DNA from: Acidobacteriota bacterium
GTDB lineage: Bacteria > Acidobacteriota > Polarisedimenticolia > SMYD01
Length of the DNA: 35,742 nucleotides
Assembly (NCBI GenBank): GCA_004356015.1
Contig: SMYD01000047.1
Coordinates: 1 to 35,742 of the forward strand
Direction: 5' to 3'
Below are positions 26,866-31,111 of this stretch, piece after piece. Numbering within the stretch: the first letter of the stretch is position 1; each line of letters begins with the position of its first letter. The notes beneath the pieces were generated by a model, which did no database searches, had not been told where the DNA came from, and saw only the letters and a program-made list of their open reading frames with translations. The position numbers were made by a program, and so were the translations under genes.

Positions 26866-27335
26866 GAGCCCTGAACGGCTTTCTCTTCCTCCTGGCCACG
26901 GGGTTCGGCTCCGGACGCTCACCCCTGGCATCGGGCACCACCGGCACCCTGGCGGCGATTCCCGTTTATATCGCCGCCGTCTGGCTGCTGGGACCGGCGG
27001 CTTTCGCGGTGGCTGCCGTCCTCTTCGTGCCTCTGGCCATTGTCGCGGCCAACGTCGCCTGCGCGCGTCTGCAGGTGAAAGACCCGGGGCTGATTGTCGT
27101 GGACGAGTGGGCCGGCTACTTCCTGACCGTCGCCCTGCATCCTCTCCACTGGCAGACCATTGCTGCAGGATTTTTCATTTTCCGTATCCTGGATGTGACC
27201 AAACCCTTCCCGGCCCGGTGGCTGGAGCACCTCCCCGGCGGCACCGGCGTGGTTCTCGACGATGTCATGGTCGGCCTTTACGGCAACTTGATCCTGTGGT
27301 TGATCCTCAGTCCACTGAGGACATTCCTGGCATGA
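26862..27335 (+). CDS. pgpA: Phosphatidylglycerophosphatase A
   Basis: PgpA removes phosphate from phosphatidylglycerophosphate to make phosphatidylglycerol at the inner membrane. The 157-residue protein shows the family signatures GSGRSPLASGTTGTL near the N-terminus, VVDEWAGYFLT, FRILDVTKPFPARWLE and GTGVVLDDVMVGLYGN. There are hydrophobic segments around 30-65, 90-110 and 135-152, consistent with a small membrane protein. It overlaps rimO (26862-26865) and ribF (27332-27335) by 4 bp on each side. Confidence 0.94.
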   Translation: MRALNGFLFLLATGFGSGRSPLASGTTGTLAAIPVYIAAVWLLGPAAFAVAAVLFVPLAIVAANVACARLQVKDPGLIVVDEWAGYFLTVALHPLHWQTIAAGFFIFRILDVTKPFPARWLEHLPGGTGVVLDDVMVGLYGNLILWLILSPLRTFLA

Positions 27336-28255
27336 AAATCGTCTACTCCACCGATGACCTGGACGGCAGCCTGCCCTACCCGGTGGCGGCGGTGGGAAAT
27401 TTCGACGGTGTTCACCTGGGCCACCAGCGCATCCTTGCAACCCTGAAGGAGAGGGCGATGCCCCACGGCGGGACAGTGGTGGTCATCAGCTTCGATCCCC
27501 ATCCCCAGAGAGTTCTTCATCCCGACACAGCACCCAGGCTCATCGCCACCCACAAGCAAAAGGTGGCCTGGCTGGAGGAGGCCGGTGTCGACCTGATGCT
27601 GGAACTCCCGTTCACCCGCGAGCTCGCGGCCCTCACGCCTGCGGCCTTCGTCGAGCGAGTCCTGCTGCGCGGCCTGCAGGTGGCGGAGATTCATATCGGG
27701 CGCAACTTCCGTTTCGGGCACGACCGCGCAGGCAACTTTGAAACCCTTGAAGAACTCGGGCGCCGTCACGGCTTCACCGCCATGGCCGTGGCCGGCGTGA
27801 GACAGGACGGGATGCGGATAAGTTCCAGCCGCGTCCGCACGGCTCTGGGCGCCGGCGACGTGGAACTGGCAGCGGAACTCCTGGGGAGAGATGAAGAACT
27901 GGTGGGGCAGGTGGTGCCCGGTAATGCCCGGGGCCGCATCCTGGGCTTTCCCACCGCCAACCTGACCGTGGAGAACGAACTGGTTCCCTTCACCGGTGTC
28001 TACGCCACCCATCTCCTGGTGGACGACGAGCCGTTGCCGGCGGTGACCAACATCGGCTCGCGGCCCACCTTCCCGGGCGCGGGTCCGGCGGTGGAAACGC
28101 ATATCCTGGATTACCAGGGCGACCTTTACGGCCAGAGGATCAGGTTGCGCTTCACCCGCCGCCTCCGCGATGAGCAGCGCTTTGCCGGTCTTGAGGAACT
28201 CAAGGCCCAGATCGCCAGGGACGTGACTGCGGCCCGCAAGGTCCTCGGCGCCTGA
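27332..28255 (+). CDS. ribF: Bifunctional riboflavin kinase / FAD synthetase
   Basis: RibF phosphorylates riboflavin to FMN and adenylates FMN to FAD. The 307-residue protein has the nucleotidyltransferase motif VGNFDGVHLGHQR (21-33), SFDPHPQRVLHP, and ISSSRVR closing the N-terminal half. The flavokinase half follows, with VVPGNARGRILGFPTANL, TGVYATHL, TNIGSRPTF and ETHILDY. ATG 27332 overlaps the pgpA stop. It is the last gene of the plus-strand operon and is followed by a 288-bp spacer and convergent leuS. Confidence 0.97.
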   Translation: MKIVYSTDDLDGSLPYPVAAVGNFDGVHLGHQRILATLKERAMPHGGTVVVISFDPHPQRVLHPDTAPRLIATHKQKVAWLEEAGVDLMLELPFTRELAALTPAAFVERVLLRGLQVAEIHIGRNFRFGHDRAGNFETLEELGRRHGFTAMAVAGVRQDGMRISSSRVRTALGAGDVELAAELLGRDEELVGQVVPGNARGRILGFPTANLTVENELVPFTGVYATHLLVDDEPLPAVTNIGSRPTFPGAGPAVETHILDYQGDLYGQRIRLRFTRRLRDEQRFAGLEELKAQIARDVTAARKVLGA

Positions 28256-28339
28256 GGCACTTACCCATCCGATGTACAGTATCCGGTCAGTCTGCTTGAA
28301 TTACATATGTGTATTATGAGATTTTAATATTGATTTAAC

Positions 28340-28368
28340 TTGACTTCACATATACGTCGACGTACGTT
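28340..28368 (+). promoter_or_regulatory. Orphan promoter-like element TTGACT-N17-TACGTT
   Basis: TTGACT (28340-28345) and TACGTT (28363-28368) are 17 bp apart, the same architecture as TTGACG-N17-TACGGT at 11497-11525. It points rightward into the convergent spacer, where no gene follows before the leuS 3' end. Predicted initiation is near 28375. Confidence 0.4.
28353..28364. repeat. 12-bp perfect palindrome TACGTCGACGTA
   Basis: The sequence equals its own reverse complement. It lies in the spacer of the orphan promoter-like element and touches its -10, the usual position of a repressor operator. No regulator gene is adjacent. Confidence 0.6.
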
Positions 28369-28517
28369 ACCTGCGAACGGAAACAGGAAACCAGAACCCG
28401 AAAGGAGGCGCCACAGACAAACTTCTCTCCCCCACCCCTCAGCCGCGCTCATCATCCGGGTCGCGGCCACAGTATGAAGGACCTCCCCCCCCTGACCCCC
28501 CGGCACTCCCCCGGCCG

Positions 28518-28533
28518 AGGGGTCACCCTTTTT
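28518..28533 (+). terminator. Weak intrinsic terminator-like stem in the ribF/leuS spacer
   Basis: AGGG (28518-28521), loop GTCA, CCCT (28526-28529), then TTTT (28530-28533). The stem is only four pairs, so this is a weak candidate. It could end ribF read-through or a short transcript from the promoter-like element at 28340. Confidence 0.3.
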
Positions 28534-28543
28534 GAACCCACCG

Positions 28544-31111
28544 TTAGACCACCACGTTGACGAGGCGCCCGGGGACGACGATGACCTTCCTCGGCTCGCG
28601 GCCGTCCAGGATCTTGACGATTCGTTCGTGGGCGAGAGCCAGATCCTGTACCTGCTCCCTTGTGGCATCGACCGGTACGCTGATATTGGCTCGCAGCTTC
28701 CCGTTCACCGTGACGGCGAGCTCGACCACATCCAGAGCCAGGGCCGACTCGTCCCATTCCGGCCAGCCGCCGGCAAGGACCGAGTCGCGTTCTCCCAGAT
28801 CGCGCCAGAGCTCCTCGGTGATGTGGGGAGCGAACGGGTGCAGAAGCTGGACCAGGATCTTGAGGGCCCGGGCCACTCCCGGCCGATCCCATTTTCCCCT
28901 TGCTGTCTTCTGCAGGTAATCCGCCAGGAAATTGCTGAACTCCATGAGAGCCGCCACCGCGGTGTTGAAGTGCAGATCCTGCCCCAGGTCCTCTGTCACC
29001 TTCCTGGTGACGGCATGTGTCCTGCGGCGCAGCTCGGCGTCACCTGATGTCGCATCCGCAGCACCCTGCTCACTGCCCAGCTCCGCGGAGGTCTCCTGAA
29101 CAAGCTTCCAGATCCGGTTGAGAAAACGAGATGCTCCCCGGACCCCCTCGTCGGACCATTCACACTCCCGTTCCGGAGGTGCCATGAACAGGGTGAACAG
29201 GCGCTCGGTGTCGGCGCCGAACCGATCGATGATGGAGGCCGGCGCCACCACGTTGTATTTCGACTTGGCCATCTTCTGCAGGGAGATCTCCACGGTCTCC
29301 TCGCACTGGGGACAGGTTTGCTCCTTGACCTGGGCGATGGGCACCCAGCCGTGGCGCGCACAACGCGCCGCCGGGTAGGTGATCATCCCCTGGGTGAACA
29401 GGCGGGCGAACGGCTCCTCGAATTCGGTCCAGCCGATGTCGTGAAGAAACTTGGTCACGAAGCGGGCATAGAGAAGATGCAGGATGGCATGCTCGATACC
29501 GCCGATGTACTGGCCCACCGGCAACCAGCGATTGACCTCCTCCCGGTCGAACGGCGCGCTGGTGAGCCGTGGCGAGATGAAGCGCAGGAAGTACCAGGAG
29601 GAATCGACGAACGTATCCATGGTGTCGGTCTCGCGCCGGGCCGGGGCACCGCAGGCGGGACAGGGCGTGTTCACGAATTCCGGACAGGCGGCCAGGGGAG
29701 AGTCGCCCGTGGGACGGAACTCCACATCGCGGGGGAGTTCCACCGGCAACTGATCATCAGGGACCGGCACCTCGCCGCAGGCATCACAGTGGACGATGGG
29801 AATGGGTGCGCCCCAGTAGCGCTGCCTGGAGATGAGCCAGTCCCGCAGCCGGAAGTTGACCGTCCCCTGCCCGAACCCTTCCTTCTCGGCATGGGCGATC
29901 ATCTCGGCGATCCCCTGGCGATTGTTCCTGCCGCTCCAGGGCCCGCTGTCGACCATGACGCCGTCAGCGGTGAACGCCTCGGTCATGGCCGCCGGGTCCA
30001 GGGGACCTTCGGGTCCTGCGATGACAACTCTCACCGGGAGGCCGGCGGCGCGGGCAAATTCAAAATCTCTCTGATCATGGGCCGGAACGGCCATGATGGC
30101 CCCGGTGCCATAGCCGGGCAGCACGAAATTCGCCGCCCAGATGGGCACCTTCTCGCCACTGTAGGGATTGATGGCGTGGCGGCCGGTGAACAGACCCCGT
30201 TTCTCCACCAGGCCCGCCCCGCGCGCGAAGGCCGACTCACGCCGGACCTCGGCAGCGAACGCCAGCACCGCCTTCTCCTCGGGCCGGCCGGCGACCAGGC
30301 CAGCCAGCCGGGGATGCTCCGGCGCCATGGCCATGAAGGTCGCGCCATAGATCGTATCCGGACGGGTTGTGTAGACCCGCAGGCTCTGGTCGTCCGACTC
30401 ACCCTCCACCTTGAAATCGAGTTCCACACCCTCCGAGCGGCCGATCCAGTTGGCCTGCATGACCTTGACCCGCTCCGGCCACTCTTCGAGGGTGCCCAGG
30501 TCATCCAGAAGGCGATCCGCGTAGCGGGTGATGCGCAGAAACCACTGCTCAAGATCCCGCTGGTCCACCGGGTTGCCGCAGCGCTCACAGGCGCCTTCCA
30601 CCACCTGCTCGTTGGCCAGGACGGTCTTGCATGAATCGCACCAGTTCACGTCGGCGCGGCGGCGGTAGGCGAGGCCTTTCTCATGCATGCGCAGGAAGAG
30701 CCACTGGGTCCAGCGGTAAAACCCGGGATGGCAGGAAGCCAGTTCCCTCTCCCAGTCGTAGACGATGCCCCACTCCTTGAACTGACGGCGCATCTTGTCG
30801 ATGTTGTCGCGGGTGGAGTCGGCCGGATGGACCCCCTGGCGGATGGCGAAGTTCTCCGCCGGCAGGCCGAAGGCGTCCCAGCCCATGGGAGAGAGGACAT
30901 TATAGCCGCGCATTTTCATGAACCGGCAGAGAGCATCACCGATGATGTAGTTGCGTCCGTGACCGACGTGGAGGGTCCCCGACGGGTACGGAAACATCAT
31001 GAGCATGTAAAAATCCCGGCCGCCACCGGCGGGCTTGGCCGTGAACAGGTGCTCCCGTTGCCAGAATTCCTGCCAGTGAGGCTCGATCTTCTTGAAATCG
31101 TAGGACTTCAT
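28544..31111 (-). CDS. leuS: Leucyl-tRNA synthetase
   Basis: LeuRS charges tRNA-Leu with leucine. The 855-residue class I enzyme has the HIGH-type motif HVGH (48-51 in GTLHVGHGRNY), the CP1 editing domain with TTRPDTIYGATF, GTGAIMAVPAHDQRD and the WGAPIPIVHCDACGEVPVP zinc-like insert. The KMSKS-type motif is KMAKSK at 613-618, with Ala in place of the usual first Ser. Further cysteine pairs (CDSC/CERC, CPAC, CPQC) suggest zinc-binding inserts. ATG 31111 is a clear start, but there is no Shine-Dalgarno; a GATAAT lies 12 bases upstream. It is divergent from pilT. Confidence 0.97.
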   Translation of the reverse strand: MKSYDFKKIEPHWQEFWQREHLFTAKPAGGGRDFYMLMMFPYPSGTLHVGHGRNYIIGDALCRFMKMRGYNVLSPMGWDAFGLPAENFAIRQGVHPADSTRDNIDKMRRQFKEWGIVYDWERELASCHPGFYRWTQWLFLRMHEKGLAYRRRADVNWCDSCKTVLANEQVVEGACERCGNPVDQRDLEQWFLRITRYADRLLDDLGTLEEWPERVKVMQANWIGRSEGVELDFKVEGESDDQSLRVYTTRPDTIYGATFMAMAPEHPRLAGLVAGRPEEKAVLAFAAEVRRESAFARGAGLVEKRGLFTGRHAINPYSGEKVPIWAANFVLPGYGTGAIMAVPAHDQRDFEFARAAGLPVRVVIAGPEGPLDPAAMTEAFTADGVMVDSGPWSGRNNRQGIAEMIAHAEKEGFGQGTVNFRLRDWLISRQRYWGAPIPIVHCDACGEVPVPDDQLPVELPRDVEFRPTGDSPLAACPEFVNTPCPACGAPARRETDTMDTFVDSSWYFLRFISPRLTSAPFDREEVNRWLPVGQYIGGIEHAILHLLYARFVTKFLHDIGWTEFEEPFARLFTQGMITYPAARCARHGWVPIAQVKEQTCPQCEETVEISLQKMAKSKYNVVAPASIIDRFGADTERLFTLFMAPPERECEWSDEGVRGASRFLNRIWKLVQETSAELGSEQGAADATSGDAELRRRTHAVTRKVTEDLGQDLHFNTAVAALMEFSNFLADYLQKTARGKWDRPGVARALKILVQLLHPFAPHITEELWRDLGERDSVLAGGWPEWDESALALDVVELAVTVNGKLRANISVPVDATREQVQDLALAHERIVKILDGREPRKVIVVPGRLVNVVV

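Follow-up and report, generated by a model that had tools for sequence, protein, structure and literature searches.

In Xanthomonas, the small RNA sX13, which maps to the polA locus, is described as folding into three stems with a run of four or five C in each loop, and the repression that it exerts is reported to depend on motifs in both partners, C-rich in the RNA and G-rich in the mRNA (PMC3771888). The 6C RNA (RF01066) is described as having two hairpins, both of which carry some six consecutive C (PMC4046766). In Sinorhizobium, the published account of intergenic small RNA predictions describes a promoter and a terminator 40 to 500 bp apart, together with conservation in relatives (PMC2573895).

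Here, we compare with these systems a spacer between two genes of an Acidobacteriota bacterium. The DNA analysed, hereafter the window, is a stretch of 35,742 nucleotides that makes up one of the 196 contigs of a 2.73 Mb genome. From comparison with the second genome of the genus, we believe, with somewhat more confidence than doubt, that this spacer carries a gene of its own, for a small non-coding RNA of approximately 160 nt that is C-rich, acts in trans and is restricted to the genus.

Results

The ribF-leuS locus

The candidate element lies in a 288 bp spacer on which two genes converge: ribF, encoding riboflavin kinase / FAD synthetase (27332-28255, plus strand, Pfam PF06574 and PF01687), and leuS, encoding leucyl-tRNA synthetase (28544-31111, minus strand, recognized from its relatives). 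The ends of the two genes, at 28255 for ribF and at 28544 for the 3' end of leuS, bear out the convergence that the sequence-only reading had described. With gene ends set by a home-made gene caller, as for all spacers compared in this work, this spacer is the third longest among 40 convergent spacers, for which the median length is 22 bp. The longer convergent spacers, of 466 bp (L155 4290-4755) and 364 bp (L163 3183-3546), have no Rfam match, and may likewise hold RNA genes not yet listed, or ORFs that escaped the gene caller.

Among 110 leuS loci, ribF was found beside leuS only in the two genomes of the genus. This sample consisted of 30 leuS loci from genomes of the class, both genus members included, with flanks of about 1.5 kb, and of 80 named leuS loci with flanks of up to 4 kb; in either set, a distant ribF could have escaped. 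In the congener (G001), approximately 880 bp containing two ORFs separate the element from ribF. It has thus remained on the leuS side, and is independent of ribF. The two ORFs (L004 604-1529), located between ribF and the islet described below, are absent from the window. One looks lipoprotein-like by eye, and the other encodes a protein with a Rieske domain (PF00355) and a hydrophobic N-terminal stretch; the stop codon of this second ORF lies within the conserved islet. The genome under study, which is 92% complete, gave no match to the Rieske protein.

An AT-rich islet containing a promoter match

The spacer had been singled out for an AT-rich islet having 15 G/C in the 60 bases 28291-28350. 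We obtained the same count, and the islet is a true outlier: its lowest 60-mer, starting at 28295, has 13 G/C, and no other site in the window falls below 25. Sampling of 20 other stretches of the same genome (301,646 bases) yielded three sites with 20 G/C or fewer per 60-mer. One of them reads as coding by eye and is absent from the list of low-GC spacers, and the two others, which are extreme non-coding islets (L147 1797-1938 and L153 19072-19189), lie between divergent genes. The extreme non-coding AT-rich islets seen in this sequence thus lie at places where one expects promoters, and such islets may mark strong promoters in this genome. Unlike these two, the ribF-leuS islet has no gene downstream.

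Alignment and promoter scoring place a -35 box TTGACT at 28340-28345 and a -10 box TACGTT at 28363-28368, both on the plus strand and 17 bases apart, exactly as first proposed. The -10 box matches TATAAT at three of six positions, T1, A2 and T6 being kept. The score was a weighted one, covering the -35 hexamer, the spacing and the -10 hexamer. The site at 28340 on the plus strand reached 8.3 bits, the highest value of the spacer and the fifth highest among the 71,424 positions of the window. In the congener, where the boxes read TTGACA and TACTTT, the aligned promoter is again the best of its spacer, with 10.12 bits versus 6.86 for the runner-up. Three rival promoter-like sites score nearly as high in the window spacer, one on the plus strand (8.23) and two on the minus strand (8.16 and 7.91); their strength is not maintained in the congener. 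A cruder scan based on 9 of 12 matches listed no promoter in 27500-29500. No co-directional gene is present downstream of 28340-28368, so the promoter was rightly said to have no coding target. At the sequence level, the candidate RNA has in both species its own promoter match, serving no protein gene.

An A/T tract just 5' of the -35 box (28316-28337, plus strand) is placed like an UP element, and could act as one. Further upstream, a block at 28268-28311 (plus strand) aligns with the congener at 40 of 44 positions. Its counterpart there consists of the last codons of the Rieske ORF, and its conservation may have this other cause; the block would be a remnant of coding sequence, or else a control site upstream of the promoter.

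An operator-like character had been attributed to the perfect 12-bp palindrome TACGTCGACGTA (28353-28364). The sequence is present, but 14 perfect palindromes of this length were counted in the window, no more than chance would give. When aligned with the congener, it shows changes at 28354 and 28356, in the same arm, with nothing to match them in the opposite arm. The palindrome being common in the window and its changes uncompensated, we rejected TACGTCGACGTA as an operator.

Layout and folding of the predicted transcript

A transcript read from this promoter would start near 28375, about seven bases past the -10 box, and, given the terminator, would span approximately 160 nt of the plus strand (28375-28533). 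Alignment, composition and folds divide the region as follows, all on the plus strand. A purine-rich 5' stretch (28373-28408), for which the folds predict little structure, ends in AAAGGAGG and leads into a first C-rich linker (28409-28440, 18 C and 2 G in 32 bases). Hairpin 1 (28442-28467) pairs GCCGCG with CGCGGC around a loop containing AUCAUCC. A second C-rich linker (28468-28493, 12 C and 4 G in 26 bases) is followed by a terminator-like hairpin with a C-rich loop (28493-28525), and a T5 tract (28529-28533) lies three bases past the stem.

Hairpin 1 folds with -14.6 kcal/mol, and none of 200 shuffled sequences folded as well. For the terminator-like hairpin, the values were -21.1 kcal/mol, a z-score of -3.69, and again none of 200 shuffles as good. 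In the congener, hairpin 1 reached -11.7 kcal/mol (12 of 200 shuffles as good), and the terminator-like hairpin, a perfect 11-bp stem, -24.6 kcal/mol (0 of 200). Both hairpins are present in separate single-sequence folds of each species. The fold energy of the whole transcript is unexceptional for the 162-nt window RNA (z -0.22); that of the congener RNA is slightly low (z -1.81).

The sequence-only reading had reported a weak stem and T-run at 28518-28533. A terminator-like signal is indeed present, but at another place and with a stronger stem; the stem had been misplaced and underrated, what had been seen being only the right arm of the 28493-28525 hairpin. Among the features of an intrinsic terminator, the hairpin is strong and kept, the T5 tract is three bases off, and the strict scan was negative, CCC between stem and T5 having failed its pattern. 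The position of the T-tract is kept in the congener, but it reads TTTGT there.

Hairpin and T-tract face the plus strand approximately 240 bases past ribF, and the congener Rieske ORF ends inside the islet. They could simply be the plain terminator of the genes on this strand (ribF here, the Rieske gene in the congener), the remainder being 3' UTR and any small RNA a by-product. This leaves unexplained why the best promoter match of the spacer occurs at the same place in both species, the extreme AT-rich tract, and the invariant first hairpin; moreover, convergent spacers of this genome are mostly much shorter, with a median of 22 bp for the 40 compared. We consider it unlikely. One may also ask whether the transcript stops at all. 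The T-tract is imperfect and the end of leuS is 10 bases past T5, so that transcription could continue past a leaky terminator into the 3' end of leuS and exert antisense control of this gene. With a terminator hairpin whose stem is strong and fully kept, such a role seems most improbable.

The AAAGGAGG motif at the end of the 5' stretch had been noted as a complement of the anti-Shine-Dalgarno sequence without a start codon. It is present at 28401-28408, with seven of its eight bases kept, and may or may not serve as such a complement. It occurs twice on the plus strand of the window and is absent from the minus strand. The congener counterpart is AAAGGAGA, the shared part being AAAGGAG, and no start codon was found at Shine-Dalgarno distance after AAAGGAG in either species. 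In the consensus fold, the kept GGAG can pair with the first linker, and in the fold of the window sequence alone, with CCUCC of the second. From these predicted pairings, it may be structural, pairing with the RNA's own C-rich linkers, rather than an anti-SD decoy.

The succession of promoter, purine-rich leader and AAAGGAGG resembles a normal 5' UTR. The element might then be the remnant of a lost gene, of which promoter and leader were left with an orphaned Shine-Dalgarno sequence when the coding part was deleted, as would fit the missing start codon. We find this quite improbable, as the same remnant must have survived in both species next to linkers at 42-46% identity, with AAAGGAG kept although neither species has a start codon.

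Conservation within the spacer

The whole spacer is 77.7% identical to that of the congener over 282 aligned bases, and other spacers range from 64 to 87%. An initial impression of higher conservation in the islet than in other spacers was given up once more spacers had been measured. Because whole-spacer identity is ordinary, the argument from conservation rests on the contrast inside the spacer. In the upstream part, 121 of 145 bases are identical over 28268-28412, 81 of 101 over 28312-28412, and 37 of 44 over 28369-28412. Identity amounts to 13/28 and 11/26 in the linkers (28413-28440 and 28468-28493), and to 22/27 and 30/33 in the hairpin segments (28441-28467 and 28494-28526). The linkers are still C-rich in the congener, with 19 C for 2 G and 9 C for 4 G. 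In the window, the excess of C over G of 28409-28493 is reached at 26 of 35,657 positions, and in the genome sample at 133 of 299,946, on either strand.

Over alignment columns 40-165, none of the 32 paired positions of the two hairpins is changed, versus 43 of the 94 other columns of this 3' part changed or gapped (Fisher, 1.6e-7), a contrast to be read with the bias toward kept positions that comes from drawing the stems from a consensus fold of the two compared sequences. If the one mismatched column pair is assigned to the stems, the figures become 1 of 34 versus 42 of 92. Covariation, proposed as a check of the sequence-only reading, is nearly nil in this two-sequence comparison: one of 23 pairs changed on both sides, in a weak 3-bp helix.

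The extreme composition of the islet could suggest that no gene is present, and that the spacer holds a site acting at the DNA level, such as an operator or a nucleoid-protein binding site, or has simply drifted toward A+T. This we find hardly credible, as the palindrome is neither conserved nor rare, drift toward A+T would not leave such C-rich linkers, and the linkers have diverged more than the promoter and the stems.

Coding potential and distribution

No small ORF common to both species was found in the element. The indels that distinguish the two copies, of 1, 2 and 4 bases, are frame-breaking, and both observations are evidence against coding.

The element is present in both of the genomes of the genus that were compared, and in each of them the promoter core and the upstream block occur in one copy per genome. 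A multi-copy element was thus rejected, the islet DNA being single in its own genome. Matches of 23-27 bp on two other contigs of this genome (C147 and C117) lie inside long ORFs and were taken as chance. A DNA search of 41 genomes of the class (E <= 0.001) returned only the two genus members and a 27-bp match in one further genome (G031), likewise taken as chance; when relaxed to E <= 0.5, some short match appeared in 21 of the 41. Covariance-model searches were run with Infernal's stricter filters. In 396 genomes of the phylum (E <= 0.1 per genome), no homologue outside the genus rose above chance: the two genus members scored 182-188 bits, and four others 18-20 bits, which is chance level. 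In the 41 genomes of the class (E <= 1), two others were found at about 15 bits.

No Rfam family matched the window element at gathering level, and a permissive search gave nothing credible, with no 6C RNA match in the window. For the congener, the best permissive matches were 6C RNA and Scr3202, at 22.7 bits versus gathering levels of 47 and 52; the weak 6C RNA match extends over the whole model. No tRNA or tmRNA was found in the window. A CsrA sponge was considered and set aside: the window copy has three GGA motifs, of which the congener keeps one.

Discussion

That the spacer encodes a small RNA, as the sequence alone had suggested, gains support from one congener, which shares the promoter, the hairpins and the position of the U-tract, with no ORF in common. 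We infer the transcription of this candidate, its ends, its mode of action and its targets. A housekeeping-type promoter at 28340-28368 within the islet, aided by the upstream A/T tract, would start plus-strand transcription near 28375, and the hairpin with T5 would stop it near 28533. The 5' portion of the product would be purine-rich and mostly open; C-rich linkers would connect it to a short GC hairpin, and the latter to the terminator hairpin, whose loop is C-rich. By analogy, it would most likely act in trans, its C-runs pairing with G-rich ribosome-binding sites of target mRNAs.

A more specific proposal, improbable in our eyes, is a new genus-confined family of small RNAs acting as self-masking translational repressors, in which the GGAG box and the C-runs are mutually exclusive partners. 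The self-folded RNA would hide its C-runs, and a G-rich mRNA, or pairing of the box elsewhere, would free them.

If the small RNA gene is real, it adds a family missing from Rfam, in a genus represented here by two genomes. It also suggests that extreme AT-rich islets mark promoters in this GC-rich genome, making orphan promoters easy to find. C-rich small RNAs being known from distant bacteria, as described for sX13, a further case would bear on how frequently this style of targeting evolves (PMC3771888).

By its described features, sX13 resembles our candidate in its GC-rich genome, open 5' region and stable hairpins, and in single-stranded C-runs able to pair with G-rich sites near start codons (PMC3771888). 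Unlike sX13 as described there, the candidate has two stable stems, with a C-rich loop only in the terminator; its other C-runs are in linkers, and its neighbours are ribF and leuS (PMC3771888). The resemblance is one of analogy and not of membership, since three C-rich apical loops are not found. With 6C RNA as described, the candidate shares a short RNA, C-runs and hairpins, but its first hairpin loop has no C6 run, only the terminator loop being C-rich (PMC4046766). Membership in this family was rejected: the congener reaches 22.7 bits versus a gathering level of 47, the window is unmatched, and two hairpins with C-runs are not present. The Sinorhizobium predictions, in the account given of them, were followed up by Northern blots and microarrays, whereas our candidate is a prediction from sequence (PMC2573895). 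It follows the same logic of a promoter plus a terminator (PMC2573895), and would be a plausible small RNA gene of a well-known, ordinary kind.
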